Source of the DNA: Azospirillaceae bacterium
GTDB lineage: Bacteria; Pseudomonadota; Alphaproteobacteria; Azospirillales; Azospirillaceae
Direction: 5' to 3'
Assembly (NCBI GenBank): GCA_035645145.1
Contig: DASQNC010000068.1
Coordinates: 1-64,000, forward strand
Length of the DNA stretch: 64,000 nt
Part shown: positions 13,349 through 31,976 of the stretch, piece after piece
How positions within the stretch are numbered: position 1 is the first letter of the stretch
Layout of the letters: each line of letters opens with the position of its first letter
The notes under the pieces: generated by a model
The model's database searches: none
The model's input: the letters and a program-made list of their open reading frames with translations, nothing else
What the model was told of the DNA's origin: nothing
Translations under genes and position numbers: made by a program

Positions 13349-13354
13349 CTGCGT

Positions 13355-14737: not shown

Positions 14738-16471
14738 ATGGTCCCGTCCTCCATCCAGGATGCAATCACCAGTGATGTCGTGCGCTGCCGGGCGCATTCG
14801 GGTCCCCTGCTCTGGACGGCCGCGCTTTTGATGCAGCTGCTGGCCGCGGTGCCTGTTCTGCTGGCCGAAACGCCGCCGTTGTTCGACTACCCGAACCATC
14901 TGTCCCGTGTGCATGTCCTGTTGGCGTGGGATCGGGTTGCCGAATTCCGGGTCTGGTTCGCGCAATCCAGTTTCCTGATCCCCAACGTTCTGTCCGACCT
15001 GATTCTGATCGGCCTTTCCAGTCTCGTCGGCGTCGAGACGGCGGGGCGCTGCCTGCTGGTTCTCATTCAGGCATTGACACTCGGCGGGATCGTCACGCTC
15101 GGCCGTGCGGCGACCGGGCGGGCGGAGGTGTGGCCGCTGTTCGGCGCGTTGTTGCTCCACAACGAAATGAGCGCCTGGGGTTTCCTGAACTATGGGCTTG
15201 GCCTTGCGGGCCTGCTTTGGGGGATGGCGGCGTGGCTCGGCACCGAGGGCCGGTCGCGCCGGATGCAGCTCGCCCTCGGTGCTGTTGCGGCAATGACGAC
15301 CTTCGCGGCGCACCTTGTGGCGTTCGGTCTGTTCGCCGCCGCCGTTGCGGCGTTGGAGGCCCGGTGGGCATGGTCGACGGCGAGGGCCCGCGGCATTGCC
15401 ACCGTGTCGGGACGGCTGGCGGCTTCCGGAGCGATCCTGCTGCCCCCCATGCTGGTGTTCTTCCTGGCCAGTCCGACCGGCGGTCTGGCTCCGGCCCTGA
15501 TGTTCGACCCGTCCCCGTTCGCCAAGCTGTCCCCCTATACCCGGCTGCTGGCATCCGGTGTGCCTGCGGCGGATCTGGCGGTTGCGATCCCCGCCTTGGT
15601 GTTGCTGGGGGGATTGGCCGTGGCCGGGCGTCTGACCATCGATCCCCGCCTGGGCACCGTGGCCGGCATCTTCGTACTGGCCCAACTGCTGCTGCCCCAC
15701 TCGGCGCTGGGGTCGTATTTCCTGGACGCCCGCATCGCCGTGGCGGTTGCTCTGGTCGCGGTGGCCGGTCTGCGGTCCCGTACGCGAGCCGGGGATGCCC
15801 GCGGCACGCGGGACCCGGCCGCCCCGGCCACCGCCCCGGCCGTCGTGTTGAGCGCTCTGGTCGTCCTGGTCGGCCTCCGGTCCGCGCTGCTGACCATGCA
15901 ATGGCAGGCGGTGGAGGGGTTGGCCCGCCCGCTGCTGGCCGCCCTCGACCGCGTTCCCCCCGGCAGCCTTGTCGTCGGCACCTCGACCGTTCCGTTGGAG
16001 GAGGGGCGGACATGGCTGCGCTCCCGCGCCGGATATCCCCCCGATGGTCATGTGGTGTCCTATGCCACCATCCGGCGCGATGCCGTCACCCCGAACATCT
16101 TTGCCCGTGAGGGCCAGAACCCTCTGGTGTTCCGGTCGCCCGTGGCGAACCTCGCCGAGGTCGGCTTGCCGGTGGACGGCCGGGGGGCCCCTCCCGGCCC
16201 GCCGATGGAACAGGACGTGCTTGACATGATCGCGGCGGCAGCTTCGGTCAGGTCCGACCTGGACCGGGTCGGGCTGAGGCATCAGGCCCTGTTCGTCGCG
16301 GTCCTGCATATCGGTTGCCGGGATTGGCCGGCGGACCTCTCCCATGGTTTCGGCACACCGGTCGAAATGGCCGCGTGCGGCGACCATTTTTCGCTGATCC
16401 GGATCCGTGCGGCCGGTGCCCACGGGTCCCAACCATCGGGCGATCCGTACTGGGACGAGGGAACCCAATGA
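14738..16471 (+). CDS. Multi-pass membrane protein, GT-C-like, paralogue of the next gene
   Basis: 577 residues with about ten to twelve predicted membrane helices and a C-terminal soluble domain of about 150 residues. Just after the first helix comes PPLFDYPNHLSRVHVL. An acidic residue at this place is where GT-C glycosyltransferases carry their catalytic Asp/Glu. The protein is clearly paralogous to the product of the next gene: GRAATGRAxVWPL, GFLNYxLGL, LPxSALGSxFLDARI, LDRxPPGS and PNxFAR-GQNPLV are shared. No exact family is recognised. I infer a polyprenyl-phosphate-sugar-dependent glycosyltransferase because of its place in a glycan island; a transport role is not excluded. Confidence 0.7.
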   Translation: MVPSSIQDAITSDVVRCRAHSGPLLWTAALLMQLLAAVPVLLAETPPLFDYPNHLSRVHVLLAWDRVAEFRVWFAQSSFLIPNVLSDLILIGLSSLVGVETAGRCLLVLIQALTLGGIVTLGRAATGRAEVWPLFGALLLHNEMSAWGFLNYGLGLAGLLWGMAAWLGTEGRSRRMQLALGAVAAMTTFAAHLVAFGLFAAAVAALEARWAWSTARARGIATVSGRLAASGAILLPPMLVFFLASPTGGLAPALMFDPSPFAKLSPYTRLLASGVPAADLAVAIPALVLLGGLAVAGRLTIDPRLGTVAGIFVLAQLLLPHSALGSYFLDARIAVAVALVAVAGLRSRTRAGDARGTRDPAAPATAPAVVLSALVVLVGLRSALLTMQWQAVEGLARPLLAALDRVPPGSLVVGTSTVPLEEGRTWLRSRAGYPPDGHVVSYATIRRDAVTPNIFAREGQNPLVFRSPVANLAEVGLPVDGRGAPPGPPMEQDVLDMIAAAASVRSDLDRVGLRHQALFVAVLHIGCRDWPADLSHGFGTPVEMAACGDHFSLIRIRAAGAHGSQPSGDPYWDEGTQ

Positions 16472-16554
16472 GACGGGCCGGCTAATCCCATTGCGAACAT
16501 GCCGGGCAGCGGGGTGCAGCTGTTCTAACGAACGGAACAGCCCATCCTCCGGTC

Positions 16555-18255
16555 GTGACGATCAGCGTACTTTCCACCCGACCTGCCCCCGGGGTCCGCC
16601 CGGAGGCCCCGATCGGCGCCCTCGGGGTACGCGCCGGCCTGCTACTCTGCCTTGTGCTGGTGGCCGTGCCGCTGCTCGCCTCCGGGACGCCGCCGCTGTT
16701 CGACTATCCCAACCATCTCGCCCGCGTGCACATCCTGCACCATTGGGACCGGCTGGCGCTGTTCCAGGCCCATTACGGGATTTCCAGCTTCCTGGTCCCG
16801 AACGTGCTGTCGGATCTGGTGCTGCTGGGGTTCATGGGGCTCGGGGATGCCCATGTCGCCGGGCGCGCGCTTCTGCTGGTCATCGCGTGGGGCACGCTGA
16901 CGGGCGTGCTTGCCTTGAACCGTGCCGCGACCGGCCGGGCATCGGTCTGGCCTTTGCTGGGTGCCCTGCTGGTCTTCAACGAAATGTTCGTCTGGGGATT
17001 CCTGAACTACCTGCTGGGGCTTGTCCTGCTGCTGTGGGGGATGGCGGCCTGGCTTTGGCTGGAGCGGCGCCCGCGGGCCGTCCAGGTGGCCGTCGGCACC
17101 GCCTTCGCCCTGTCGCTGTTCCTGTCGCATCTGGTCGCCTTCGGCCTGTACGGGGTCGCGATCGCCATCCTGGAGCTGCGGCGCGTCTGGCGCGCGGGCA
17201 CCCTTTGGCGGGCGGAGGGCGTCGGACGCCTGGCGGTCTCCGCCACGCAGTTCGTCCCGGCGTTGGCCCTGTTCCTGTGGGTCAGCCCGTCGAGCGGGCT
17301 GCCGGTCGATCTGCGATTCGACTACAGCCTGTGGGGCAAGCTGTCGCCGTTCGCCCGGCTGCTGTCGACCGGCAATCCGATCGCCGACACGGGAACGCTC
17401 GTCCTTGTGGTGGCCATCGTCGCCATCGGCTTGGCCACACGCCGCGTCGGGCTGCACAGGGATCTGGCGCTCGTGGCCGGTGCCGACCTGCTGCTGGTTC
17501 TCGTATTGCCCTACTCGGCGCTCGGGTCCTTTTTCCTGGATGCGCGCATCGTCATTGCCACCGCCCTGGTGGCCGTCGCGGCGGTCACCCCGCGCGTCGT
17601 GGTCGGTGCCAACGACGTGACGGGCCGCAGGGCCGGCGCAAGGTGGTGGGGCCGATGGCCTCTGCTGGCGGTCATCCTGGTCCTGGTCGGAGTCCGGACG
17701 GTTGTCCTGGTCCGGGATTGGCATGCCCAGTCCGAGCAGTACCGGCCCGTGCTGGCAGCGCTCGACCGCCTGCCGCCCGGCAGCATCCTCGTCGCAGGCT
17801 CGGCCGCCCCGTTCGAGTTGGGGGACTGGTTCTCGACACGGCGGATCCGCCCCCCGCGCGAGCATGTCGCCACCTACGCCACGGTGGATGCCGATGTGCT
17901 GGTGCCCAACGTCTTCGCCCGAGCGGGGCAGAATCCGCTGGTCTACACCCCCGCCCAGGAAGAGATGGCACCGTTGGGCCGCAACCCGATCCTGCGGCTG
18001 TTCGGGCCGGACGGCCTGCGCCACTTGGCGACCGAGGCGGCCCGTGTGGCCAGCCGCCGCAACGTCATGGATCCGCCCCCCACCGGTGTCTTCGTGATCG
18101 CCCACCATGTCCGGTGCGACGCGTGGCCGGCGGACGTGCCGGTGCGGGCCGCCGCCTGCGGGCCGGACTTCTCGTTGATGGAGGTGGTGCCGGTGGCCGC
18201 GGGCCCGGCACCCGACACCAGGGGCGGAACCGCCGAGGAGACCAGGATGCCATGA
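16555..18255 (+). CDS. Multi-pass membrane protein, GT-C-like, second tandem paralogue
   Basis: 566 residues starting at a GTG. The architecture is the same as the preceding gene: first helix, PPLFDYPNHLARVHIL, a series of membrane helices, then a soluble C-terminal domain with LPPGSILVAG and VPNVFARAGQNPLVY. Identity with its neighbour is spread over the full length, which indicates tandem duplication followed by divergence. The stop overlaps the start of the GT87-like gene (ATGA), so these two are translationally coupled. Probable membrane glycosyltransferase of the glycan island; donor and acceptor are unknown. Confidence 0.7.
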   Translation: MTISVLSTRPAPGVRPEAPIGALGVRAGLLLCLVLVAVPLLASGTPPLFDYPNHLARVHILHHWDRLALFQAHYGISSFLVPNVLSDLVLLGFMGLGDAHVAGRALLLVIAWGTLTGVLALNRAATGRASVWPLLGALLVFNEMFVWGFLNYLLGLVLLLWGMAAWLWLERRPRAVQVAVGTAFALSLFLSHLVAFGLYGVAIAILELRRVWRAGTLWRAEGVGRLAVSATQFVPALALFLWVSPSSGLPVDLRFDYSLWGKLSPFARLLSTGNPIADTGTLVLVVAIVAIGLATRRVGLHRDLALVAGADLLLVLVLPYSALGSFFLDARIVIATALVAVAAVTPRVVVGANDVTGRRAGARWWGRWPLLAVILVLVGVRTVVLVRDWHAQSEQYRPVLAALDRLPPGSILVAGSAAPFELGDWFSTRRIRPPREHVATYATVDADVLVPNVFARAGQNPLVYTPAQEEMAPLGRNPILRLFGPDGLRHLATEAARVASRRNVMDPPPTGVFVIAHHVRCDAWPADVPVRAAACGPDFSLMEVVPVAAGPAPDTRGGTAEETRMP

Positions 18256-19442
18256 CCGGCCATTCCAGGCGCATCGTTCCCGGCCTTTCCGCACTGCTGG
18301 CGGCTCTGCTCGCCTACCTTGTCTTCCTGGCACTGGGGAGATCGCTACCAGGGCCGGACCTGATGGATTTCGGGTCGTTCGTCGCTTCGGGCCGTGCGGC
18401 GGCGGAGGGGCAGAACCCGTACGGCGTGTACCCGCTCACCTTCCATGTGGTGCTGCCGAACTTCGAGTCCTGGAACCCGAATCTCAATCCGCCGATCTCG
18501 GTTCCCGTCTTCGCGTGGATCGGGCAGTTCGATCCGCACGAGGGATTCCGCTCCATGTGGGCCTTTTCCTTCGTCGGCTACGCGGTTGCGGTTGCCCTTC
18601 TGGCGCGGCGCTACACGCCGGATCGTTGGGTGCTGCCGGTCGCGTGGGCGTTCGCGTTGGCCGGCTTCTGGGACACGCTGGTCCTGGGCCAGATCTACGT
18701 GCCGCTCGTGCTGGCGACGGTTTGCGCCTGGCTGGCGCTGGATCGGGATCGGCCGGTGGCCGCCGGGGTGCTGATCGGCATCGTGGTCGCGGTGAAACCC
18801 AACTTCCTGGTCTGGCCGGGCCTGCTCTTCCTGGCGGGCCACCGGATTCCGGCCTTGGTGTCGGTCGCCACGGCGGCGGTGCTGAGCGCCATCCCCGTCG
18901 CGATCTATGGGCCCGGCATCTATGGCCAGTGGATCGAATTGCTGGCGTCCGATAGGGAACGGGCGGTCTTCCTGACCAACGCGTCCCTCTCGGCCTTGGC
19001 CCTGCGGGCGGGTTCCGGCACGGCCGGCCTGGCTCTGAGCGTGCTGGTCCTGGGCGGCATGGCCCTGTGGTCCTGGCGGGCCCGGCCCGCGGCGATGGCC
19101 GCGAGCGTCTATGGATTGATCGGTGCCCTGCTGGCCTCGCCGATCGCATGGGTCCAGTACACGATGTTCCTGTTGCCGGTGTTCTTCGCCCGGCCCCTGA
19201 CATGGCCGATGCTGGTTTCGGCCGGGCTGCTGGTGGTGCCGGTGCCCACCATCCTGGGCTATCTCGATGCGCCTTTGTGGATGCGGCTGACCGTCGGATC
19301 CTGCTACGGCTGGGCGGTCGTGCTGTGCCTCGTGGGAACCCTGGCCGGATACGCGGGTCGCGGTGCGGGGGCGCCCGGCGGACCGTTCCGCGCCCGGCGT
19401 CCGGCCATCAATGTCAAGGCGGGCGGCGTCAAAGCAGGTTGA
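18252..19442 (+). CDS. GT87/DUF2029-type membrane glycosyltransferase
   Basis: 396 residues with about ten membrane helices. DFGSFVASGRAAAEGQNPY after the first helix is the typical opening of DUF2029 (GT87) proteins, with Asp in the expected catalytic position. NPNLNPPISVPVFAWI and GVLIGIVVAVKPNFLVWPGLLF are further family features. GT87 members such as the mycobacterial mannosyltransferase PimE transfer a sugar from a polyprenyl-phosphate donor on the outer face of the membrane. The start overlaps the stop of the previous gene. The 3' end overlaps the convergent PAP2-like gene by 14 bases. The sugar transferred here could be arabinose, given the neighbouring pathway, but that is inference. 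Confidence 0.78.
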   Translation: MTGHSRRIVPGLSALLAALLAYLVFLALGRSLPGPDLMDFGSFVASGRAAAEGQNPYGVYPLTFHVVLPNFESWNPNLNPPISVPVFAWIGQFDPHEGFRSMWAFSFVGYAVAVALLARRYTPDRWVLPVAWAFALAGFWDTLVLGQIYVPLVLATVCAWLALDRDRPVAAGVLIGIVVAVKPNFLVWPGLLFLAGHRIPALVSVATAAVLSAIPVAIYGPGIYGQWIELLASDRERAVFLTNASLSALALRAGSGTAGLALSVLVLGGMALWSWRARPAAMAASVYGLIGALLASPIAWVQYTMFLLPVFFARPLTWPMLVSAGLLVVPVPTILGYLDAPLWMRLTVGSCYGWAVVLCLVGTLAGYAGRGAGAPGGPFRARRPAINVKAGGVKAG

Positions 19443-19839
19443 GCACCAGGGCGCACACACCGCCCGTCGCAACCCCCGCCAGCACCTCCACCGGACTGTG
19501 GCCCATGCGCTCGCGCAGGGCCTGCACGACGGGATCCGCGGGGTACAGCGTCTTCAACGCGGCGGCATGGAGCCCAACCTTCCGGCGCAGGTCCATGGCG
19601 TCGATCATCACGATCACCGCCAGCGTCAGCGCCACCGCGAACCAGGGTGTGCCGAAGCCGACCTTGAGGCCGAGCAGCCAGCAGGTGGTCCACACGATCG
19701 TCGTATGCGTGCTGGGAATCCCGCCGAGGCCAATCCGCCCGAAGGCGAGGCGGCCCTCCTTCAGGGTGTTTATGGCGAATTTCAACGACCCGGCGGCGAG
19801 GTAACCTGCCACCGGCGCCAGTGGATAGGCGATGTCCAT
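19429..19839 (-). CDS. Divergent PAP2-family (DUF212) membrane phosphatase
   Basis: 136 residues, with the start chosen by AAGGAAGG upstream (reverse strand). LAFGRIGLGGIPSTHTT carries the Ser-x-His core of the PAP2 superfamily, and LTLAVIVMIDAMDLRRKVGLHA is the conserved second block of DUF212 proteins. Four short membrane helices. In mycobacteria a PAP2-type protein beside the arabinogalactan genes is proposed to dephosphorylate decaprenylphosphoryl-5-phosphoribose. This gene occupies the matching position, 50 bases after the DprE2-like gene on the same strand, so that role is plausible here. Confidence 0.75.
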   Translation of the reverse strand: MDIAYPLAPVAGYLAAGSLKFAINTLKEGRLAFGRIGLGGIPSTHTTIVWTTCWLLGLKVGFGTPWFAVALTLAVIVMIDAMDLRRKVGLHAAALKTLYPADPVVQALRERMGHSPVEVLAGVATGGVCALVLNLL

Positions 19840-19889
19840 TCCCACACCCCTTCCTTGGAACCGGGTGCCGCGTCGGAAGACGCCACCCG

Positions 19890-20678
19890 TCAGATCGACA
19901 GCCGTTTGAAGATCGGTTCCGGCACGGCCCGGATCGCCATCATCACCGGCCGCCAGAACCCCGGGAAGTAGACCACCTCCGTCCCCCGCCGCGCGGCTTT
20001 CAAGCAGGCCCTGGCGCACGCTTCGGGCGAGGCGACCAGGAACATGCCCGGCAACCCCCAGGTCATGGCGGTGTCCAGGAAACCCGGTTTGACCGTGACC
20101 ACCCGCACGCCGGCGTCGGCCAGATGGCTGCGCATCCCCTGAAGGTAGGCGTGCAGGCCCGCCTTGGCCGAGCCGTAGATGAAGTTCCTGCGCCGACCGC
20201 GGTCGCCGGCGACCGAGCCCAGCACCACCACGGACCCGCCGCCCTGCCGGCGCAACCCCGGCTCCAACCGGTTGAGCACGGACATGACGCTGAGGAAGTT
20301 CACCTCCACGACCCGCCGGGCGATGGCCGGGTCGGCCAGCGAGGCCGCCTGGTCGGGCATGCTGCCGACCGCATAGAACAGGTTCAGCCGCCGGCCCCGG
20401 GCGCCGTCCCAGCAGGCGGCCACGAAGTCGTCATGGCTGCGGTCGTCGGCGGCATCGAAGGGCAGGACCGTCACTTGCCGCCCGGTGCGCAGCCGCAGGT
20501 CCGAGGCGGTCGCCGACATGTCTTCCCGGTCCCGTCCGGCAAGCACCAGGTCGGCGCCGGCCTGCGCCGCCTCCCGCGCGAAGGCCCGGGCGACCGACGA
20601 CGTGGCCCCCACCACGACCCAAAGGTCGTCGGCGGGGCCGGAAGGCAGGGTGGCGGAAGACAGGGGCGGGGTGGTCAT
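19890..20678 (-). CDS. dprE2: DprE2-like SDR: decaprenylphosphoryl-2-keto-ribose reductase
   Basis: Short-chain dehydrogenase of 262 residues. The nucleotide-binding motif is GATSSVA (24-30), and the catalytic residues are Ser155 (GSVAGD), Tyr168 and Lys172 (IYGSAKAG). The C-terminal part has KPGFLDTAMTWGLPGMFLVASPE, the family's substrate-loop pattern. With DprE1 it epimerises polyprenylphosphoryl-ribose to polyprenylphosphoryl-D-arabinose by reducing the 2-keto intermediate. The start overlaps the DprE1-like stop (ATGA), showing translational coupling with its partner. Confidence 0.85.
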   Translation of the reverse strand: MTTPPLSSATLPSGPADDLWVVVGATSSVARAFAREAAQAGADLVLAGRDREDMSATASDLRLRTGRQVTVLPFDAADDRSHDDFVAACWDGARGRRLNLFYAVGSMPDQAASLADPAIARRVVEVNFLSVMSVLNRLEPGLRRQGGGSVVVLGSVAGDRGRRRNFIYGSAKAGLHAYLQGMRSHLADAGVRVVTVKPGFLDTAMTWGLPGMFLVASPEACARACLKAARRGTEVVYFPGFWRPVMMAIRAVPEPIFKRLSI

Positions 20679-22027
20679 GCGGCCTCCCGGATGCGCAGGC
20701 GGCGGGACATGTCCGATCCCAGGCGGCGGTCCGGATCCACGCGGTCGAGCACCGCCCGGAACTCGGGCAGGCGCGGGTACATGCGGCGGAATCCCTCGGG
20801 CGACAGGCTCGCGTCCTTCGCCAGATAGATTCGGCCGCCATGGGCCAGCACGAGCCGCTCGAGGCGCGCCATCAGCTCGGCCGTCCCGGCGCGGACCGGG
20901 AAGTCGAGCGCCAAAGTGAACCCCGACATGGGAAACGACAGGTGTCCACGCCCCGGCCCGCCCAGCGTTTTCAGAACTGCCAGGAAGGAGGCCGATCCGG
21001 CACCGGCGATGGCTTCGACCAGCGCCGGAATGCCGCGTTCGGCCTCGCCATCGGGGATCACGCACTGGAACTGGTGGAAGCCGTTCTTCCCGTACATCCG
21101 GTTCCAATCCCGGATCGCATCCAGCGGATAGAGGAATTTCCCGGCGGGCTGGACCCGTTCCCGCCCGTCCGCCGGCACGCGGGTGTAATAGAGATGGTTG
21201 AACAGGCCGATGCTGTGGCGGTTGAGCACGATGCCCGGCAGATCCACTGGCAATCGCATTTCCCGCGGACCGGCCCCGGATGCCGGGGCGGCCTGGTCGG
21301 CGGATGCGAAGTCCGCGGTTTGCAGGATGCCGCGGCCGAGCCCGGCGCCCTTCGCCACGGCGTCGATCCAACCGACCGAATAGGCCGCGCTCCGGCGGGC
21401 CTCGACCAAGGCGGCCATGAACGCGCCGATGTCCGGCAGCCTTTGTTCCCGGACCACCATGTGGCCCGAGGGCACCCGCTTCATCCGGAACGCGACGGCC
21501 ACCATCAGTCCGGTCAGTCCAATGCCGCCAATGGTGGCGGCGAACAGGCCGGGGTTTTCCTGCGGGGATGCGCGGACGATTTCGCCCGAAGGAAGCGCCA
21601 GGTCCACCCAGGCCACATGGTCGCCGAAGCTGCCGACCCGGTCGTGGTTCTTGCCGTGGACGTCGTTGGCGACGGCGCCGCCGATGGTCGCAAAGGCGGT
21701 ACCGGGCGAAACCGGGGCGATCAGGCCGCGGGGCAGGAACGCGGCCTCGATCTGCCGGAAGGTGACGCCGGGCTCGCACACCAGAAGATCGCCTTCCGGG
21801 TCGAAATCCAGGAACCGGTCGAGCCGTCCGGTCAGGATCGTGGCACCGCCGTCGTTCAGGGCGGTGTCGCCGTAGCTGCGTCCGGCCCCGAACGGAATTA
21901 TGGAGGGCCGGGCTTCCCCGGACAGCAGCGCGGCCAGGGCTTCGGACCGGCGTTCCGGCCGGAACGCGCGGGTGTTCGCGCGTATGGCCCGGCCCCAGCC
22001 GGTCAGGACAAGCGGCTTCGCCCTCAT
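20675..22027 (-). CDS. dprE1: DprE1-like FAD oxidoreductase: decaprenylphosphoryl-ribose 2-oxidase
   Basis: 450 residues. The FAD-binding VAO-type domain shows GAGRSYGDTALNDGG (47-61) and TIGGAVANDVHGKNH (114-128), both diagnostic of DprE1. The C-terminal substrate part has YGKNGFHQFQCVIP and the ending HGGRIYLAKDASLSPEGF. It oxidises C2 of the ribose on a polyprenyl phosphate carrier, the first half of the epimerisation to D-arabinofuranose. It lies between the flippase-like gene and dprE2 with ATGA overlaps on both sides. Outside Actinobacteria this enzyme is known from a few arabinosylating Proteobacteria. Confidence 0.88.
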   Translation of the reverse strand: MRAKPLVLTGWGRAIRANTRAFRPERRSEALAALLSGEARPSIIPFGAGRSYGDTALNDGGATILTGRLDRFLDFDPEGDLLVCEPGVTFRQIEAAFLPRGLIAPVSPGTAFATIGGAVANDVHGKNHDRVGSFGDHVAWVDLALPSGEIVRASPQENPGLFAATIGGIGLTGLMVAVAFRMKRVPSGHMVVREQRLPDIGAFMAALVEARRSAAYSVGWIDAVAKGAGLGRGILQTADFASADQAAPASGAGPREMRLPVDLPGIVLNRHSIGLFNHLYYTRVPADGRERVQPAGKFLYPLDAIRDWNRMYGKNGFHQFQCVIPDGEAERGIPALVEAIAGAGSASFLAVLKTLGGPGRGHLSFPMSGFTLALDFPVRAGTAELMARLERLVLAHGGRIYLAKDASLSPEGFRRMYPRLPEFRAVLDRVDPDRRLGSDMSRRLRIREAA

Positions 22028-23025
22028 GCGGGCGCCCCCCGGCGGGCCAGCCGCAGGGTCGGGGGCAATGCGACGAACCCGAGCGCCACCGCGAACCACA
22101 GCGTGGTGACCCGGACCACGGCGGTCGCCGGGATCGCAAGATCCAATCCCACACCATGCGCCGCGAGAAGGGCGAGCATCGCCGCCTCCGTTCCGCCGAG
22201 CCCGCCCGGCAGGAACGACAAGGCCCCGGCCAGCATTGAGGCGGTGAAGACGAAGACCGCGGCCTTGAACCCGATGTCCGCCCCCAATGCCTCCAGGATC
22301 AGGGCGAACGCCGTGCATTCGGCCAGCCAGCCGGCCAGCGTCAGTGCCATGGCGACCAGCATGATCCGCGGGGCGAACAGCTCGGCCGTCCCGCGGAGGG
22401 CGCTGCGCGTCCTGCCGAACAGGCGCGGCCACCGCCCGACCGCCCGGTAGGCGGCCCCGATCCCGCCGAGCGCCAGCCGTGGCCGCAGGCCGAGCAGCAG
22501 CATCCCCGAAACCACCACCGCAGCCGCCGCGGCAATCCAGACCCCGGCCCAGCCCCCGGCCGAAAGCGACGCGAGGCTGAGCATCAGAAGCAGGCCCATG
22601 GCACCGAGGTCGGCAACCCGGTCGGCGATGAACAGCGGCATCGTCCGGGCGTAGCGGTAGCCGTGGCACCGCTCCATCAGCCACAGGCGCAGGGCTTCAC
22701 CGACCTTGCCGGGCGTGGTGGTCAGCGCGAAGCCCGCCGTGAAGTAGAGCGCCGTCCGGGGGAACGGCACAGGGACGCCCAGGTGGTTGCCGTAGATCTG
22801 CCAGCGCACGGCGCGCAGGACGTAGTTCAGCAGCGACAGTCCCAGCAATGCCGCCACCAGCGGCAGGTTCAACCGGGAAAGGTGGATCCAGACCCCGGGC
22901 CCGCCGGCGGCGACCGCGGCAACGGCCATGCCGGCCGCGAACACGACCACCGACAGGACCACCATTCCTTCCAGCCGGCGCACGTCCAGTCCGGTCCCGC
23001 GGATTTCCGGCACGGGCGGCCTCAC
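22024..23025 (-). CDS. Lysylphosphatidylglycerol-synthase TM / UPF0104 flippase-like membrane protein
   Basis: 333 residues and about eight membrane helices. LNYVLRAVRWQIYGNHLG, FALTTTPGKVGEALRLWLM, FIADRVADLGAM and LSFLPGGLGGTEAAMLALL are the conserved blocks of this family, whose members include membrane parts of lipid flippases. A GTG at 23025 overlaps the UbiA-type stop (GTGA) and is taken as the start; an ATG at 22965 is an alternative. Embedded in the arabinose-donor operon, it could move polyprenyl-phosphoryl-arabinose or a glycan intermediate across the membrane. That role is inferred from context. Confidence 0.78.
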   Translation of the reverse strand: MRPPVPEIRGTGLDVRRLEGMVVLSVVVFAAGMAVAAVAAGGPGVWIHLSRLNLPLVAALLGLSLLNYVLRAVRWQIYGNHLGVPVPFPRTALYFTAGFALTTTPGKVGEALRLWLMERCHGYRYARTMPLFIADRVADLGAMGLLLMLSLASLSAGGWAGVWIAAAAAVVVSGMLLLGLRPRLALGGIGAAYRAVGRWPRLFGRTRSALRGTAELFAPRIMLVAMALTLAGWLAECTAFALILEALGADIGFKAAVFVFTASMLAGALSFLPGGLGGTEAAMLALLAAHGVGLDLAIPATAVVRVTTLWFAVALGFVALPPTLRLARRGAPA

Positions 23026-23969
23026 AGATGGACGAGCAGGGCGAAGGACACGGCCCACAGCCCCATGGCCGCGATCAGGAAGCGATCGGTCAGCACGATG
23101 GCCGTCGGGGTGCCGGACCTCTCCTCGACCAGGGCGATCTGCAGATAGCGCAGGATGCCGGCCAGCACGAACGGGATGGTGACGTAGAGCCGCGGGTGGC
23201 CGAGCTGGTCCACCACCGCCGGATCCGTGGTGAAGATGGTGTACGAGATCAGCAGGGCCGCCAGCACGATGGAGATGGACGCGTCCAGAAAGGGGAGCGA
23301 ATAGCCCTCCAGGCTGCGCCGGTGCCCGCCGCCCAGGGATTTCGTCAGGTCGTCCCGCCGCTTCGCCAGGGCCAGGAACATGGCGACCAGGCCGGTGCAG
23401 ACCACGATCCAGACGCTGGGCTCGACCTTGATCAGGGCCGCACCGGCGCAGACGCGCAGCATGAACCCCATGGTGATGATCATCACGTCGATGATCGATA
23501 CGTGTTTGAGGCCCAGCGAATAGCCGATGTTCATGACGAAATAGACCACCGCGATGGCCCCGAAGACCGGGGACAGCGCAAATGCAAGGCCCAGGCCGGC
23601 GGCCAGCGCGACCGACAGGAGAAACAGCGCCGTCCCGCCGGTGACCTCCCCGCTGGCGATGGGCCGCTTGCATTTGGTTGGATGCAGGCGGTCGGCCTCG
23701 CGGTCCATGTAGTCGTTGAGCACATAGACGGCGCTTGCGAGCAGGGAGAACGCCAGCACGCCCAGCAGCACCGTCCAGATCCCGCCCCATGTGACCGTCG
23801 AGGGGGTCAGGAACAGCGGGGCGGCGACAAAGGCGTTCTTGACCCACTGGTGGGGACGGAGCAGGCGCAGCCATGCCGGCGGGCGCAGCAGGCCGTCCAC
23901 ATCGACGGCCGGCTTGCGTGTGGTGGTCAAGCCGATGCGGTTCGCCCGTTCTTGTGTGGTTTCCGTCAT
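23022..23969 (-). CDS. ubiA: UbiA-type decaprenyl-phosphate phosphoribosyltransferase
   Basis: 315 residues and nine membrane helices. NDYMDREADRLHPTKCKRPI (85-104) is the DPPR-synthase form of the UbiA signature, with the Asp-rich metal site followed by HPTK-x-x-RPIASG as in mycobacterial Rv3806c. A second Asp-rich loop appears as AKRRDDL. The enzyme couples PRPP to a polyprenyl phosphate, the entry step to polyprenylphosphoryl-D-arabinofuranose. The start at 23969 has GGAGGG upstream; a longer frame lacks support. First gene of the operon UbiA - flippase-like - dprE1 - dprE2 - PAP2-like. Confidence 0.88.
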   Translation of the reverse strand: MTETTQERANRIGLTTTRKPAVDVDGLLRPPAWLRLLRPHQWVKNAFVAAPLFLTPSTVTWGGIWTVLLGVLAFSLLASAVYVLNDYMDREADRLHPTKCKRPIASGEVTGGTALFLLSVALAAGLGLAFALSPVFGAIAVVYFVMNIGYSLGLKHVSIIDVMIITMGFMLRVCAGAALIKVEPSVWIVVCTGLVAMFLALAKRRDDLTKSLGGGHRRSLEGYSLPFLDASISIVLAALLISYTIFTTDPAVVDQLGHPRLYVTIPFVLAGILRYLQIALVEERSGTPTAIVLTDRFLIAAMGLWAVSFALLVHL

Positions 23970-24271: not shown

Positions 24272-25621
24272 ATGAACGCCCGACATTCCCTCGTGCGCGC
24301 CGGCCTGATGCTGTTTGCCATGGCCGCAGCCGCGCTGTTCGATCCGGCCCCGCACCCTGCGGGCGCTGTCGGTTGGTTGCCCCCGTCCGGTCCGCATCCG
24401 GTGGGGACCGGAACCGTGTCTGCGTTGCCCGCCCGCAAGATCTGCCAGGTCATGGGCGAGGTGGATCGGGAAACCGGGCAGCCGGCGATCAACCGCACGG
24501 TCACCCGCCACAGGTTCTGGGGGACGGATCTGGGCGCCTCGTTCGAACACCGGGGACGCCTCTACTTCCTGTTCGGCGACACCCATACGTCCGCTGGCCT
24601 CAGGCGCCCCGCCGACAGCGACTTCATCGCGGTGTCGGACGACGGCGACCCCGAGGACTGCCTGGCGATGGACGTGGCCTCGGAGGCCGACGGTGGCTTC
24701 CGGCCTTTGACGATCCCGGGCATCCATTCGGGTGCGTTCGCCGTCCCCACCGGCGGGTTCAGCGTCGATGGCCGGATGTATGTGTTCGCAACCACCGACC
24801 ATACCCCGGCGAATCCCATGGGCCGGTCCGTGCTGGCACGTTCGAACGACGACGGGGGGAGCTTCGAGCTCCGCCGCGACATGTCGCGGACGCATTTCAT
24901 CAACGTGGCGCCCGTGGTGGCCGATACCCGGACCATTGGCGCCATTCCGGGATTACCGGATGCCGGCACGACGGTCCTGTTATGGGGGAGCGGCCGATAC
25001 CGTGCCAGCGATCCCCGGTTCGCCATCGTTCCGGCGGACCGGGTCGAGGATCGGGATGCCATCCGCTATTTCGCGGGAATGGACGCCGCGTCCGGCGAGC
25101 CCCGATGGTCCGCGCGGGAGGAGGACAGCGCGCCTCTCTTCCAACAGCCCTGCCTGGGCGAGCTGTCGGTCGCCTACCTGGCTCCCCTGGGCAAGTGGGC
25201 GATGCTTTACAATTGCGCGGAACCCGGCAGCCGCATCCTGATCCGCACGGCCGACCGGCCATGGGGCCCTTGGTCCGAACCGTCGGTCCTGTTCGATCCA
25301 GAGCGGGACGGCGCCTTCTGCCGCTACATGCACCCGGGCCCCCTGATGCGGGTGCGCGCCGACGGCTGCCGGATGGTTTCCGATCCCCACAGCATCGGCA
25401 CCGCCGGCGACGTCTACGCCCCGTACATCGTCTCCCGCTTCACCCGTTCCAACCCCGACGGGTCCGCGGACATCTATTTCCTGATGTCGACGTGGAATCC
25501 CTACACCGTCGTCCTCATGAAGGCGACGCTGCGCCCGGACGCCCCGCACCCGCCCGCCATGCCCGGATCGCGGCTGGCCGAGACCGAGACCGGGGTCGGG
25601 GCGGGCGTCCCGGCGAACTGA
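24272..25621 (+). CDS. Secreted DUF4185-like protein, putative endo-D-arabinanase (GH183-like)
   Basis: 449 residues with a signal peptide (LMLFAMAAAALF; cleavage around 32). Blade-like repeats suggest a five-bladed propeller. RFWGTDLGASFEHRGRLYFL followed by FGDTHTSAG is the characteristic DUF4185 opening. SGAFAVPTGGFSVDGRMYVF, SVLARSNDDGGSFELR and a Cys-containing AMLYNCAEPGSRI block follow. DUF4185 members from Dysgonomonas and mycobacteria were shown to be endo-D-arabinanases (family GH183). Finding one beside a complete D-arabinose donor pathway supports a turnover or trimming role on an exported D-arabinan. Assignment to DUF4185 is by eye; catalytic acids are not identified. Confidence 0.65.
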   Translation: MNARHSLVRAGLMLFAMAAAALFDPAPHPAGAVGWLPPSGPHPVGTGTVSALPARKICQVMGEVDRETGQPAINRTVTRHRFWGTDLGASFEHRGRLYFLFGDTHTSAGLRRPADSDFIAVSDDGDPEDCLAMDVASEADGGFRPLTIPGIHSGAFAVPTGGFSVDGRMYVFATTDHTPANPMGRSVLARSNDDGGSFELRRDMSRTHFINVAPVVADTRTIGAIPGLPDAGTTVLLWGSGRYRASDPRFAIVPADRVEDRDAIRYFAGMDAASGEPRWSAREEDSAPLFQQPCLGELSVAYLAPLGKWAMLYNCAEPGSRILIRTADRPWGPWSEPSVLFDPERDGAFCRYMHPGPLMRVRADGCRMVSDPHSIGTAGDVYAPYIVSRFTRSNPDGSADIYFLMSTWNPYTVVLMKATLRPDAPHPPAMPGSRLAETETGVGAGVPAN

Positions 25622-25693
25622 TCGGACGGTCATCTTCCGGGCGCGCCTTCCGGGTTGAATTCCCTGTTCGACCGGCCTCCGGAGGGCGCCCCG

Positions 25694-27373
25694 CTACCCG
25701 GGCGCCCCCGCCCGGGCCGCGTGCAGGGCCTTCCCGGGCTCGCAGGGGTCGTTCGCCGACCTTTCGTCCGCGATGCGGTTGCGTGTGGACGAGAGGAGGT
25801 AGGTGGGCGTGTCGGCGCGCTCCACCAGCAGAAGATCGGTTCCGATCCGGCTGACGCGCCAATCGTCCGAGTAGCGGAGCCGGACATCCACCCAGCGCAG
25901 GCCCCTTTCCTCGGCCACCAGGAAGCGGGAATGGGTCGCCAGGAAATCCGCACTGTCCACGATGTTGAAGTGCGGGACGTGTTCTTTGAAGTTGCGCAGG
26001 ATCTTGAAGTCGTTGCTGTCGTGCAGCGCCGTACCCGGATCCATGGCCGCATCCCAGTCCAGCACGTAGGTGTAGCGTTCCCGGTCGGCCAGATACTGCT
26101 GCGTCTGCATGAACTTCAGGGCGTGCATGACCACCACCGGGAGGTCGCGGCAGGCCCGGACCGCGTATTGCTGCGGGGATTGGACCGGCTGCACCAGCAC
26201 CGCCGCGGGTGGCAATGCCAGCAGGCCCGCGACGTAGGTGGCCGCGGTTCCCTGCGCGATGCGCTGCCAAGGGGGCGCCGGTACGGCGTGTGCAGGCACG
26301 GCGAGGTGCCGGTCGAAGTCGAACCATGCGGCGACGAAGGTGAACAGGACGCCCCATCCGATCACCGAAGCCAGAAGGTATCGCGGCATGAAGATCGGTT
26401 CGGCCACATGGGACAACACGAACGAGGCGAAGGGGACGCAGGCCAGCGCGACGGCGCCGACCACCAGATTCCGGCGCATCCGTGTCCGGCCGGGGTCCGG
26501 CGGCAGGTGCGCGTCCGCCTTTCCGGCCGTCCGTTGGCCCTGGGCCTGACCGACCAGCGTGGCCAGCACGACCAACGCAAGGACGATGAACGCCATGCTG
26601 GTCACGATCCCGCCCATCGTCGCGGTGAGATCCTTGGGCGTGGGCGGTTGCATCCAGGCGTGCGGCTTCACCACGTCGCCTTGCCGATGGAACGCGGGCA
26701 GCCAACCGATGAAAGCCGCCCATCCCATTGGGAAGCTCAGGTACGACAGGGGCCGGAACCGCCGTTCCATCACGTCGACCGCCAGCAGGGCGCCGAGCAG
26801 GGCCGCCCCGTAGACGCCGCCGTAGACGTGGGTCATGACCAGGAACGCCTGGACGACCGCGTTCGCCGCCAGCAGCAGCGCCGATGGCCGCCCGTCCGCG
26901 GCAAGCGCCACGTACAGGCGGAATGCCAGGGCAACGCCCGCGGTCAGCACGCCGTAGTACCGGATTTCGGGGATCTGCCCGATGACCGTCCATGAGGTGC
27001 AGAAGGCGGCGAGCAGGCCGAATGCGGTCGACCAGAATCCGAAGCCCCGCCGTGTCGTGGTCCAGACGACGGCGAAGGCGAGCACGAACGACAGGGTCGT
27101 CAGCAGCCGCAACGTGGTTTCGTCGGTGCCCAGCAGCGCCCGCCAGCCGGCGGCCAGCAGGAAGTAGACGGGCGGACCGCCGATCAGGTCCGAAACCGCC
27201 GCCCACATGGAGCCGAAATCCGGCCGGTTCAGGATCTGCCAGGAAATGATCTCGTCGTACCACATGTAGCCGCGGGCGACGCTGATCAGGCAGGTGGCGA
27301 CGAACGAGGCGAGCACCGCGGCCAGCAGGGCCGCATCGGCCATCCGGTGGAGACGGAGGGGTTGACGGCGCAT
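25694..27373 (-). CDS. GT39/ArnT-like membrane glycosyltransferase
   Basis: 559 residues with about eleven membrane helices. After the first helix comes ARGYMWYDEIISWQILNRPD; the Tyr-Asp-Glu is the catalytic motif position of the PMT_2/ArnT class of GT-C enzymes. A C-terminal soluble part of about 130 residues (from DLPVVVMHALKFMQTQQYLA) resembles the periplasmic cap of such enzymes. It uses a polyprenyl-phosphate sugar donor in the inner membrane. The GT2 gene is upstream on the same strand (gap 56 bases), so the pair may make and use one donor. The acceptor is unknown. Confidence 0.8.
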   Translation of the reverse strand: MRRQPLRLHRMADAALLAAVLASFVATCLISVARGYMWYDEIISWQILNRPDFGSMWAAVSDLIGGPPVYFLLAAGWRALLGTDETTLRLLTTLSFVLAFAVVWTTTRRGFGFWSTAFGLLAAFCTSWTVIGQIPEIRYYGVLTAGVALAFRLYVALAADGRPSALLLAANAVVQAFLVMTHVYGGVYGAALLGALLAVDVMERRFRPLSYLSFPMGWAAFIGWLPAFHRQGDVVKPHAWMQPPTPKDLTATMGGIVTSMAFIVLALVVLATLVGQAQGQRTAGKADAHLPPDPGRTRMRRNLVVGAVALACVPFASFVLSHVAEPIFMPRYLLASVIGWGVLFTFVAAWFDFDRHLAVPAHAVPAPPWQRIAQGTAATYVAGLLALPPAAVLVQPVQSPQQYAVRACRDLPVVVMHALKFMQTQQYLADRERYTYVLDWDAAMDPGTALHDSNDFKILRNFKEHVPHFNIVDSADFLATHSRFLVAEERGLRWVDVRLRYSDDWRVSRIGTDLLLVERADTPTYLLSSTRNRIADERSANDPCEPGKALHAARAGAPG

Positions 27374-27429
27374 CGGGGTTGGTTCTCGGTGCGGGTTGAG
27401 GGTGTCGCAGGGCGGTTGGGCGCGCGGCC

Positions 27430-28560
27430 TCAGGCGGCGACCGGATCCGCCGGCGAACGCGAACGGTCGAGGCGCGGCAGGACCGGGGGGGTGAACTCGG
27501 CCGACCACAACGCCTGCCGCTCGGTCACATCGAGATGGGCGAAGAAGGGCGGGACGGGCAGTTCGCGGTTTCCGGCCGCCACCTTGTCGATCAGGAACAG
27601 CGGACGGCGCCGGGCTTCCGTGACCAGGCGACCGAGGTATTCGCCCATGATGCCCAGGACCAGGAGCTGGACACAGGCGAAGAAGGACATGGTCCCCATG
27701 AGGCTCGTCCATCCGGCGATCGCGTCGTCGACCATCCAGCTGTACAGCGCGTAGCCCATGAGCCCGAAGGTCACGGGGGCCAGCAGCAGCGCGAGATGGC
27801 TGGCGACGCGCAACGGCACCGTCGAGAAGGACGTCACCGCGTCGGCGGCAAGACGCAGCATCCGCCGCAGCGTATACGTCGTGGACCCGGCGAACCGTTC
27901 GCACCGCGCATAGGGGAGCGGCACCTGCCGGAACCCGACCCAGCTCACCATGCCCCGCAGGTAGCGGTGCTGCTCGGGCATGCTGGCCAGCGCGTCGGCC
28001 ACGCGGCGGCTGATCATGCGGAAATCGTTGGCGCCCGACGGCATGTGGGTGTCGGTGATGGCGCCGATCAGGCGGTAGAAGGCACGGGCCGACACATTCT
28101 TGAACCACGACTCCGAATCGTCGTCGATCCGCTGCCCGTACACGACTTCGGCGCCGTCCTCCATCAGGCGCAGCATGTCGGGGATGACCTCCGGCGGGTG
28201 CTGCAGGTCCGCATCCATCATCAGGATGCGCCGTCCCCTGGCCACCGCCAGGCCGGCCGTCAGGGCCAATTGCTGTCCGTGGTTGCGCGCCAGCCGCACG
28301 CCGAGCACCTGCTCGTCCCCTTGGGCGAGTCCGGCGATCGCGTTCCACGTCCCGTCCTTCGACCCGTCGTCGACCAGGATGAGTTCGTAGGACGAGCCGA
28401 GGATGGGCCGGCAGACGTCCGTCACACGGCGGTGGAGTTCCGCGAGGTTCCCGCTTTCATTGTAGCAGGGAACGACGATCGACAGCTCGGGTGGGCACGC
28501 GGCGGCAGGGCGTGTGTCGGACTTGTTCTGCAGGTCGAAGATCATGTCCATGACCGCCAT
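27430..28560 (-). CDS. GT2 polyprenyl-phosphate glycosyltransferase (DPM1/GtrB/ArnC type)
   Basis: 376 residues. The GT-A domain starts with ELSIVVPCYNESGNLAELHR and has ILVDDGSKDGT, the DxD-like MMDADLQHPPEV and the NDFRMISRRV block. Two C-terminal membrane helices (about 240-262 and 275-300) anchor it. Such enzymes load glucose, mannose or a related sugar from a nucleotide donor onto a polyprenyl phosphate at the cytoplasmic face. It is upstream of and co-oriented with the ArnT-like gene, and divergent from the GtrA-type gene, its usual functional partner. Confidence 0.88.
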   Translation of the reverse strand: MAVMDMIFDLQNKSDTRPAAACPPELSIVVPCYNESGNLAELHRRVTDVCRPILGSSYELILVDDGSKDGTWNAIAGLAQGDEQVLGVRLARNHGQQLALTAGLAVARGRRILMMDADLQHPPEVIPDMLRLMEDGAEVVYGQRIDDDSESWFKNVSARAFYRLIGAITDTHMPSGANDFRMISRRVADALASMPEQHRYLRGMVSWVGFRQVPLPYARCERFAGSTTYTLRRMLRLAADAVTSFSTVPLRVASHLALLLAPVTFGLMGYALYSWMVDDAIAGWTSLMGTMSFFACVQLLVLGIMGEYLGRLVTEARRRPLFLIDKVAAGNRELPVPPFFAHLDVTERQALWSAEFTPPVLPRLDRSRSPADPVAA

Positions 28561-28773
28561 ACCTTTCGATAGAGGTTGGCGGCATCATGGAATCGAATTC
28601 GCACGGAACCTTATCTTATTGGGGGTTAAATTCCCGGAATTCGTGGGTGTGGCTTGCCAGAGCAGTGCAACCCTTGCGGACAGGGTGTCCCCCTTCGGGA
28701 GTTTTCGAATGTGGATTTGCCCGTCCTGATCGCGCGGCGGCATACATGGCGCACACGCTGCCCCGGTGCCGCC

Positions 28774-29190
28774 ATGACGACAGGCTCCATCCCTTATCCC
28801 CCGCGCCTGCCCCGTTCGTTGATCCGTTTCGGAACGGTCGGCGTGGCCAATTCCGCCACCGATTATTTCCTGTTCATGGCATTGCGGGCCGCCGGGTTCG
28901 GCCTGGTTCCCGCCAATGCCCTCGCCTACGGCTTGGCGACGGTGCAGAGCTTTGCGCTGAACAAGCGGTGGACCTTCGGTGACGATGCCGCGGGGGCGGC
29001 GGCGTTGCGTCAGTTCGGGCTGTTTGCCGGGATCAATCTGGTCAGCCTCGGGATCTCGACCCTTACCGTCTGGAATGCATCGCAGGTGGTGTCCGAAGGG
29101 GCCGCGAAGCTCCTGGCGATCGCCGCCGGTTTCGTCTGGAACTATGTGTTCAGCCGCCTGCTGGTCTTCCGCGGGGGCCGTGGCCAATGA
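28774..29190 (+). CDS. GtrA-family membrane protein
   Basis: 138 residues with four membrane helices. LIRFGTVGVANSATDYFLFM and the conserved QSFALNKRWTF, then GFVWNYVFSRLLVF near the end, are GtrA signatures. GtrA proteins are thought to flip polyprenyl-phosphate sugars, or to anchor complexes as proposed for mycobacterial Rv3789 in the arabinan pathway. The start at 28774 is the first ATG before the homology. The stop overlaps the ChbG-like start (ATGA). Likely partner of the divergent GT2 gene. Confidence 0.85.
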   Translation: MTTGSIPYPPRLPRSLIRFGTVGVANSATDYFLFMALRAAGFGLVPANALAYGLATVQSFALNKRWTFGDDAAGAAALRQFGLFAGINLVSLGISTLTVWNASQVVSEGAAKLLAIAAGFVWNYVFSRLLVFRGGRGQ

Positions 29191-30083
29191 CGCACGCGGT
29201 CCTCGGCGCGCCGACCGGCACGGCCCCCCATGCGCGGTCCGGGCGGGCGGGCATTCCGTTCGTCCTGTGCGCGGACGATTACGCCCTGTCGCCCGGTGTC
29301 AGCCGGGCCATCCTGGATCTGCTCGAACGCGGGCGGCTGTCGGCGACCTCCTGCATGTCCATCCGCCCGGAATGGGCGCGGCATGCATCCTGGCTGCGTT
29401 CGTACGTGGGACGGGTGGATCTCGGCCTCCACTTCACGCTGACGGACCACCGCCCCCTTGGCCCCATGCCCCGCCTCGCCCCCGGCGGACGGTTGCCGAC
29501 GCTTGGCGGACTGCTCCGCCTCGCCTTCGCCGGTCGGTTGGATCCCGAGGAAATCGCCGCGGAACTCGACCGGCAGCTTGCGGCGTTCGTGGCGCACCTG
29601 GGGCATCCGCCCGACTATGTCGATGGCCACCAGCACGTCCACCAGCTTCCCGTGGTGCGCGACGTCCTGGTCCGCCGTTTGGCCGGCAGCGGGAGCTATG
29701 TGCGCCTGTGCGCGGAACGGCCCGCCACCATCGTGCGCCGCGGCGTGGCGGTGCCGAAAGCCCTGTTCATCGCCGGATTGGGCTTGGGTTTGCGGCGCCT
29801 GCTGGTCCGCCATGGGATCCGGCACAATGCGGGATTCGGCGGGGTCTACGCTTTCGATACGCGGGCGTCGTTCGGGCACCTGTTCGAGCGCTTCGTCCAT
29901 GGCATTGGACCGGGTGCACTGGTGATGTGCCATCCCGGCTTTCCCGACGACGTATTGCGCGAGGTGGACCGGCTGGTGGAGCCGCGACTGCCGGAGCACC
30001 GCTGGCTCGCCGGGCCCGGCTTCCGGGACCTGCTCGACCGTCACGGGTTGCGCTTGGCGCGATTGGTGGATTGCGGACGATAG
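29187..30083 (+). CDS. ChbG/HpnK (YdjC)-family carbohydrate deacetylase
   Basis: 298 residues. The metal-binding and catalytic pattern is visible: VLCADDYALSPGVSRAI (N-terminal Asp pair), VDLGLHFTLTDHRPL (His) and DYVDGHQHVHQLP (His pair). The end has GALVMCHPGFPDD. The family removes acetyl groups from N-acetylated sugars and also includes hopanoid-side-chain and glycolipid deacetylases. It is translationally coupled to the GtrA-type gene, so its substrate is probably a polyprenyl- or lipid-linked aminosugar of the same glycan. Confidence 0.85.
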   Translation: MTHAVLGAPTGTAPHARSGRAGIPFVLCADDYALSPGVSRAILDLLERGRLSATSCMSIRPEWARHASWLRSYVGRVDLGLHFTLTDHRPLGPMPRLAPGGRLPTLGGLLRLAFAGRLDPEEIAAELDRQLAAFVAHLGHPPDYVDGHQHVHQLPVVRDVLVRRLAGSGSYVRLCAERPATIVRRGVAVPKALFIAGLGLGLRRLLVRHGIRHNAGFGGVYAFDTRASFGHLFERFVHGIGPGALVMCHPGFPDDVLREVDRLVEPRLPEHRWLAGPGFRDLLDRHGLRLARLVDCGR

Positions 30084-31059: not shown

Positions 31060-31132
31060 AGCGCCGCCCCCTCCTTCTGCCGGTTGCCGGCCGGGAGAGG
31101 GGAGGCATCCCAAGTCCGGCGGGGGATTTGCG

Positions 31133-31915: not shown

Positions 31916-31976
31916 TGGGGCGTCCGTACCGCCACGGCTCTCGACGGGTTTGTCCCGCGGACCCTAGACTCCGCCC

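Follow-up and report, generated by a model that had tools for sequence, protein, structure and literature searches.

D-Arabinan is usually regarded as characteristic of mycobacteria and related bacteria. What might an alphaproteobacterium make with genes for a D-arabinofuranose donor that lie among glycosyltransferase genes? The question is posed by a contig of an Azospirillaceae bacterium (GCA_035645145.1, DASQNC010000068.1), whose first 64,000 nucleotides were analysed and are referred to here as the window. Comparison of its genes with solved enzymes, protein families and related loci suggests that the island quite probably serves to build, and also to edit, an envelope polymer of D-arabinofuranose.

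The island and its relatives

Annotation of the window by open reading frames and profiles found all of the genes named in an initial annotation where that annotation had placed them (Table 1). The donor operon (19429-23969) encodes a UbiA-type phosphoribosyltransferase, a UPF0104 protein, DprE1, DprE2 and a DUF212 protein in close packing. It had been described as one tightly coupled operon, which is borne out by 4 bp overlaps between the UPF0104 gene and dprE1 and between dprE1 and dprE2; a GTG at 23013 is a possible earlier start for the UPF0104 gene. The gtc1, gtc2 and GT87 genes lie on the opposite strand, facing the operon, and the gene for the DUF4185 (GH183) protein adjoins it.

Table 1. 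Features of the conserved island, with window coordinates
Feature	Coordinates	Strand	Basis
gtc1, GT-C membrane glycosyltransferase, candidate arabinofuranosyltransferase, gtc2 paralogue	14738..16471	+	44-45% identity to gtc2
gtc2, GT-C membrane glycosyltransferase, candidate arabinofuranosyltransferase	16555..18255	+	AlphaFold fold, island orthologues
GT87 glycosyltransferase, PimE fold (predicted), candidate second arabinofuranosyltransferase	18252..19442	+	PF09594 3.6e-24
DUF212 divergent-PAP2, candidate polyprenyl-phospho-5-phosphoribose phosphatase	19429..19839	-	PF02681 3.3e-27 (Pfam), PSTH motif
dprE2, SDR reductase, predicted to convert 2-keto intermediate to polyprenyl-P-D-arabinofuranose	19890..20678	-	NF053786, YxxxK
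dprE1, predicted FAD oxidase of polyprenyl-P-ribofuranose	20675..22027	-	NF053785, PDB DprE1
UPF0104 / LPG_synthase_TM flippase-like protein	22024..22965	-	PF03706 1.4e-44, TIGR00374
ubiA, predicted polyprenyl-phosphate phosphoribosyltransferase (DPPR synthase)	23022..23969	-	NF008977, 8j8j
Predicted secreted DUF4185 / GH183, endo-D-arabinanase candidate	24272..25621	+	PF13810 3.6e-44, 8hhv 3.6e-15

Synteny, which had been proposed as a means of defining the conserved core, delimits it as the GT-C, GT87 and GH183 genes, usually with the donor operon beside them. This core occurs in at least 11 loci from several families and orders, the 10 further loci being from Azospirillaceae, Telmatospirillum, Pseudoroseomonas, Chthonobacter and Aurantimonadaceae, and all 10 carry gtc2 orthologues. 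Culturable carriers include Indioceanicola profundi, Pseudoroseomonas aestuarii and Antarcticirhabdus aurantiaca. A full-length DUF4185 protein was present in 1 of 385 sampled genomes of the class, and 2 of 385 carry this GT87 subfamily; the recurrence of one core across so many loci, despite such rarity, shows that the clustering of these genes is not due to chance. In the DprE1 tree the dprE1 genes that are linked to DUF4185 occupy separate branches, and well-supported branches force 5 changes; GH183 has therefore been paired with D-arabinose donor synthesis repeatedly. Among these separate contexts is that of Tateyamaria, where a DUF4185 protein of 28.8% identity accompanies HAD-UbiA, GtrA, DprE1, DprE2 and unrelated GT-C-like genes. 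Counting against the D-arabinan reading, Skermanella has the gtc-GT87 genes without DUF4185, and its donor operon is elsewhere in the genome.

The conserved island spans approximately 14738-25621. It is narrower than the 14738-30083 first assigned to it; no related island contains the genes of the remainder (25694-30083). The window also carries genes for an ArnT-like protein (PMT_2, just over the cut-off), a GT2, a GtrA and a YdjC/ChbG protein, formerly counted as island members. As these are missing from every related island (0 found) they were rejected as part of the system, and probably constitute a separate neighbour.

Synthesis of the donor

The UbiA protein scores 260 bits against NF008977 (decaprenyl-phosphate phosphoribosyltransferase; NCBIfam cut-off 234), has a match at 4.3e-33 to 8j8j, a solved enzyme from Mycobacterium, and contains the motif NDxxDxEADRxHPTK. 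DprE1 and DprE2 fall below their NCBIfam equivalog cut-offs (408 bits against 500 for NF053785, and 193 against 250 for NF053786, respectively), a point against the D-arabinan reading. In a PDB sequence search DprE1 matches solved DprE1 structures at about 1e-78, and alignment shows that it keeps the catalytic and FAD residues Y60, H132, K134, W230, Q334, Q336 and K418, with C387 replaced by Ala and N385 by Thr; the YxxxK catalytic motif is present in DprE2. These matches to mycobacterial enzymes, with their catalytic residues retained, uphold the earlier assignment of a D-arabinofuranose donor pathway. Covalent DprE1 inhibitors would be a poor test of this reading, because the cysteine that they target, Cys387, is the one replaced by Ala.

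Among the donor loci compared, DUF212 is restricted to those where UbiA has no fused HAD phosphatase domain, and UPF0104 and GtrA never occur together in one operon. Taken with the protein families, their folds and the retained catalytic residues, the conserved linkage suggests a route in which UbiA would join PRPP to polyprenyl phosphate, removal of the 5-phosphate would fall to the DUF212 protein, and DprE1 would oxidise and DprE2 then reduce C2 to give polyprenyl-P-D-arabinofuranose, which the UPF0104 protein may move to, or keep available at, the periplasmic side. DUF212 and UPF0104 are in this way suggested as the phosphatase and flippase for two poorly defined steps.

The donor chemistry is expected to be that of mycobacterial arabinogalactan and LAM arabinan (Rv3806c, Rv3807c, DprE1, DprE2, Rv3789, Emb/Aft). 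As would be the case for the island, the mycobacterial GT-C transferases face the periplasm, and GH183 proteins (Rv3707c, Rv1754c) are encoded in the same genome as the synthesis genes. However, the island has UPF0104 in the place of GtrA and a DUF212 protein where mycobacteria have a classical PAP2 protein, its hydrolase gene lies within the synthesis island, and the cell is Gram-negative.

Candidate transferases and hydrolase

The gtc1 protein has no match in Pfam or NCBIfam; its first outer loop contains an invariant Asp (FDYPNHL). Neither gtc1 nor gtc2 has a Pfam match, and PDB searches gave no sequence match of the two to the mycobacterial Emb, AftA, AftB and AftD; the similarity observed is one of fold only. 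As PDB sequence searches returned nothing meaningful, either for GT87 by itself or for profiles of GT87 and gtc, structures were predicted. The AlphaFold model of gtc2 (pLDDT 84.6, pTM 0.87) gives a VIA Z of 18.1 with ArnT (416 residues), 15.6 with AftD and 14.9 with both AftB and AftA, while the GT87 protein (86 bits against PF09594, cut-off 25; Pfam) yields a model that superimposes on PimE with a VIA Z of 25.1 (353 residues, rmsd 3.9). The predicted folds thus agree with the original GT-C call. Homology of the gtc proteins to the second GT-C-like family of Rhizobium, Paracoccus and Tateyamaria was tested and not found, and the same outcome was obtained for the ArnT-like protein of the window. 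The gtc proteins appear to form an unclassified GT-C family and are likely arabinosyltransferases.

Two observations on the transferases count against the D-arabinan reading. Distant gtc relatives (200-250 bits) are mostly in genomes where dprE1 was not detected, so membership of the gtc family does not by itself fix the sugar, and the solved structure closest to the GT87 protein is that of a mannosyltransferase. For an arabinosyl rather than a mannosyl donor, the argument is genomic linkage to dprE1 only: the GT87 subfamily lies 5-7 kb from dprE1 on Rhizobium and Paracoccus plasmids, in clusters without gtc genes.

The initial annotation had also noted a candidate degrading enzyme. Its DUF4185 domain is full-length (positions 3-309 of 309), its N-terminus is signal-like, and DUF4185 corresponds to GH183, a family of endo-D-arabinanases defined by experiment, the characterised members of which act on D-arabinan (PMC10115798, PMC10509167). 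Alignment with 8hhv places D86, D103, E297 and R244 at EndoMA1 D33, D51, E243 and R198, where D33 is the nucleophile and D51 the acid/base, and all four residues are invariant across 11 relatives. The conservation of this set supports a putative arabinanase.

The product and its alternatives

A D-arabinan would be assembled if gtc1, gtc2 and GT87 transfer Araf to an acceptor outside the inner membrane, building at least two linkages, and the secreted GH183 enzyme would then cut alpha-D-Araf linkages so that the chain is trimmed, released or remodelled. The CPS-1 of the alphaproteobacterium Devosia submarina is a polymer of D-Araf only, with alternating alpha-1,2 and alpha-1,5 linkages, and the accessible text of its description gives no genes for it (PMC8707391). 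With two linkages, such a chain requires two or more transferases, and it would suit the island enzymes.

A shorter product is conceivable. Both proteobacterial precedents with known products, the type IV pilins of Pseudomonas paraeruginosa and the Nod factors of Azorhizobium, involve oligo-arabinosylation, in which a protein or small molecule receives one or a few residues of Araf and a long polymer is not formed. The pilin system (PSPA7_6245-6251, TfpW) is expected to use the same donor, with a GT-C enzyme outside the membrane, and the donor genes of the island resemble noeCHOP of S. alkalisoli; in noeCHOP loci (Azorhizobium, S. alkalisoli), as here, the UbiA-type, DprE1 and DprE2 genes share one operon. 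However, noeCHOP has GtrA where the island has UPF0104, lacks GT87 and GH183, and is followed by a single 401-aa protein without a Pfam match; no nod genes lie beside the island. Nor does the island contain a pilin gene, and PilT gave no match in its genome in a search where 13 of 14 controls were positive, and modification of type IVa pilins was therefore set aside as the main reading. The short pilin glycan is attacked by only a subset of GH183 enzymes, the account consulted describes no hydrolase with the pilin cluster, and an endo-acting arabinanase with three GT-C genes fits a polymer better. Oligo-arabinosylation is accordingly rather unlikely.

It is less probable still that the GH183 protein is a foraging or predation enzyme for actinobacterial arabinogalactan, its place beside the donor genes being incidental. 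Dysgonomonas and Microbacterium do carry GH183 in loci for the utilisation of D-arabinan, but neither transporter nor D-arabinose catabolism genes were seen within the island, GH172 gave no match in a genome search that had no positive control, and linkage of GH183 to donor and GT-C genes recurs across DprE1 types from separate branches. Just as improbable is a lipid-linked D-ribofuranose or other furanose, with some other carrier-linked sugar as the substrate of the DprE1 and DprE2 homologues; the sub-threshold scores and the pocket changes C387A and N385T would be in keeping with this, but UbiA suits phosphoribosyl transfer, the catalytic residues of DprE1 and DprE2 are kept, and the islands link a D-arabinanase to the donor genes. 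A D-arabinan thus remains the preferred product.

The suggestion of an undescribed D-arabinose polymer holds in part: the polymer class is known chemically from Devosia submarina, whereas the genes are apparently undescribed. Literature searches found no paper assigning genes to a Gram-negative D-arabinan, nothing in full text that joins D-arabinan with both alphaproteobacteria and LPS and, for DprE1 in proteobacteria, one passing mention with D-arabinofuranose and nothing on point for alphaproteobacteria; the accessible literature on arabinose in Azospirillum EPS gave no usable D- or L-configuration. As a portable set of genes for Gram-negative D-arabinan, the island would offer candidate genes for such polymers, including one known only from chemistry, and it suggests both possible natural substrates for gut-bacterial GH183 enzymes, the targets of which are uncertain, and environmental bacteria where the D-arabinose pathway could be studied. 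More tentatively, it may be a Gram-negative D-arabinan system that recurs but has gone unrecognised, with an unclassified arabinofuranosyltransferase family of its own (gtc1/gtc2), a DUF212 phosphatase, a UPF0104 flippase and a retaining GH183 enzyme that serves synthesis through release, length control or transfer. The precedents listed in the initial annotation omit the Devosia submarina D-arabinofuranan.

A conserved island of transferases, hydrolase and donor genes

All of the genes named in the initial annotation are present in the window (see table). Within the donor operon, dprE1 overlaps both UPF0104 and dprE2, by 4 bp in each case, and the operon is faced by three glycosyltransferase genes, the paralogues gtc1 and gtc2 and a GT87 gene that overlaps gtc2 by 4 bp and DUF212, tail to tail, by 14 bp. 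The DUF4185 gene starts 302 bp from ubiA and is oriented away from it.

Features of the window and of comparison loci (locus coordinates are internal)
Feature	Location	Coordinates	Strand
ubiA, UPF0104/LPG_synthase_TM, dprE1, dprE2, DUF212, in that order	window	23969 down to 19429	minus
dprE1	window	20675-22027	minus
gtc1 (577 aa), gtc2 (566 aa), GT87 (396 aa)	window		plus
ArnT-like GT-C, GT2, GtrA, YdjC/ChbG	window	25694-30083	
DUF1326, PpoB2/DUF2182, FAD/NAD oxidoreductase	window	30391-33095	
DctP, PAS histidine kinase	window	11246-14434	minus
~520-aa family, 1-3 copies adjoining dprE1/dprE2	L147	10044-13250	
Same family	L148	10972-15688	
Same family	L075	2055-3650	
Second donor operon, own genome	L033 (G000:C4:9000-28999)	7622-11872	
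noeCHOP cluster, S. alkalisoli	L149	5422-10262	

A scan of species genomes with a gtc profile gave 11 loci. The gtc-GT87-DUF4185 module itself is present at 11 loci, the window included; the other carriers are Telmatospirillum sp. J64-1, Chthonobacter rhizosphaerae, Pseudoroseomonas aestuarii, Pseudoroseomonas vastitatis, Antarcticirhabdus aurantiaca, an Aurantimonadaceae MAG, two Rhodospirillales/Rhodospirillaceae MAGs, Aerophototrophica crusticola and Indioceanicola profundi, where the island lies on a 1.18-Mb plasmid record. A complete donor operon (ubiA-dprE1-dprE2) lies within or adjoins the module in nine of the 11. In Aerophototrophica (L064), UPF0104 is the sole donor gene visible within the limits of the 16-kb contig, whereas UPF0104 and HAD-UbiA are present at the island of the bin98 MAG (L065); in both, dprE1 is on another contig. 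Comparison of the islands found no additional recurrent genes except between close pairs. Three genomes of the Skermanella group retain gtc-GT87 but no DUF4185 and carry UPF0104-dprE1-dprE2 at another site, and the sister species in the window organism's genus lacks the island. The island is real, conserved and mechanistically coherent.

Nor is the clustering of gtc, GT87, DUF4185 and donor genes due to chance. Among 385 genomes of the class, dprE1 is present in 47, the window's GT87 subfamily in two and a strong DUF4185 of full length in one, that of the window itself; strong DUF4185 occurs in 4/59 genomes (the window's and relatives), each time a few kb from gtc. When mapped on a 54-sequence DprE1 tree, linkage to DUF4185 needs five changes, each forced by well-supported branches, and the link has therefore been gained or lost repeatedly. 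In Tateyamaria omphalii, DUF4185 (28.8% identical) adjoins HAD-UbiA, GtrA, DprE1, DprE2 and GT-C-like genes of a family unrelated to gtc, and on Rhizobium and Paracoccus plasmids the GT87 subfamily (53-58% identity) is linked to dprE1 in clusters with two or three copies of this second, unannotated family. This family, of no detectable relation to gtc, replaces gtc in all three genera.

The second donor operon of the window's own genome comprises HAD-UbiA, GtrA, a DprE1 of ~44% identity and DprE2. Upstream of it, on the opposite strand, lies an open frame of 550 aa without annotation; GT87 and DUF4185 were not detected in the neighbourhood.

Donor synthesis

The window UbiA scores above the curated cut-off of the decaprenyl-phosphate phosphoribosyltransferase model and aligns with the solved mycobacterial enzyme, NDYMDREADRLHPTK included. 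DprE1 aligns along its length with M. tuberculosis DprE1 (165/436 aligned residues identical), of which Y60, H132, K134, W230, R325, Q334, Q336, K367 and K418 are unchanged. DprE2 is a short-chain reductase that reaches 193 bits with the DprE2 model, below the cut-off of 250, and is outscored by one broader SDR model. Judged by family, it is nearly certain that the operon would synthesise the donor. In the window DprE1, N385 is replaced by Thr and C387, the covalent attachment site of benzothiazinones, by Ala (window residue 373). Covalent DprE1 inhibitors would thus be expected to be ineffective, and the inhibitor test proposed initially would probably be negative for this trivial reason.

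Across ~53 loci, searched with custom profiles and counted by hand from the table, DUF212 is present in five donor operons, and in each of them UbiA lacks a HAD domain. The HAD domain is fused to UbiA in >20 others (Pfam-confirmed for five) and never accompanies DUF212. UPF0104 (18 loci) and GtrA (11) likewise never occur together in one donor operon. Read most simply, DUF212 and the fused HAD domain would be alternatives for the 5-phosphatase role, as UPF0104 and GtrA would be for the flippase step; all DUF212 loci fall in one DprE1 clade, and several loci show neither alternative. The gene order of the S. alkalisoli noeCHOP cluster (UbiA, GtrA, DprE1, DprE2) points to NoeH as a probable GtrA protein.

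Transferases and hydrolase

All three transferases are of GT-C type, a fold class that uses lipid-phosphate sugar donors outside the membrane. TRANSFERASES: gtc1 and gtc2 have no match in Pfam or NCBIfam. The gtc2 structure predicted from 14 sequences (pLDDT 84.6, pTM 0.87) has a GT-C fold, matching ArnT (Z 18.1 over 416 residues, rmsd 4.4), AftD (Z 15.6) and AftB and AftA (Z 14.9), with oligosaccharyltransferases and Pmt4 in a similar range; these model-based matches identify a GT-C enzyme rather than the sugar it would transfer. The predicted GT87 structure (pLDDT 77.3) is nearest PimE (Z 25.1 over 353 residues).

DUF4185 is CAZy family GH183, whose Dysgonomonas, mycobacterial, phage, myxobacterial and Microbacterium members cleave D-arabinan, with a retaining mechanism in those examined for it (PMC10115798, PMC10509167). 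The window protein keeps its initial description as a candidate degrading enzyme and matches EndoMA1 (8hhv) at 3.6e-15; residues counted along the printed alignment equate D33, D51, E243 and R198 of EndoMA1 with D86, D103, E297 and R244, positions invariant in 11 island members. Its N-terminus, judged by eye, resembles a signal peptide.

Product and neighbouring genes

It is likely that the island makes a D-arabinan with a dedicated hydrolase, a polymer being likelier than a single decoration because a predicted endo-D-arabinanase accompanies the transferases. D-Araf might instead decorate type IV pilins, a reading weakened because PilT was not detected in the genome by a search in which 13 of 14 controls were positive. 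GH183 could also serve foraging rather than synthesis of the cell's own polymer; this too is weakened, since GH172 was not detected in the genome (a search without positive control) and the linkage of DUF4185 with donor synthesis recurs. For a D-arabinan product, the closest chemical model would be the 20.7-kDa polysaccharide of alternating alpha-1,2/alpha-1,5 D-Araf reported from the alphaproteobacterium Devosia submarina (PMC8707391). The polymer class, initially suggested to be undescribed, has precedents in mycobacteria and Devosia; what appears new in the literature searched is the gene set, the unclassified transferases and the hydrolase built into the island.

The ArnT-like, GT2, GtrA and YdjC/ChbG genes, which the initial annotation had counted in the system, are excluded from it, since none of the related islands has equivalents of them next to its core. 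GT2-GtrA pairs adjoin distant gtc relatives elsewhere in Azospirillaceae (L036, L038), suggesting a separate lipid-linked sugar module; the family is put to another use in the small GtrA proteins that some donor operons encode. A row of DUF1326, PpoB2/DUF2182 membrane protein and FAD/NAD oxidoreductase genes also adjoins the island, and just upstream lie genes for DctP, a solute-binding protein of the TRAP type, and for a PAS histidine kinase, possibly a single sensing unit.
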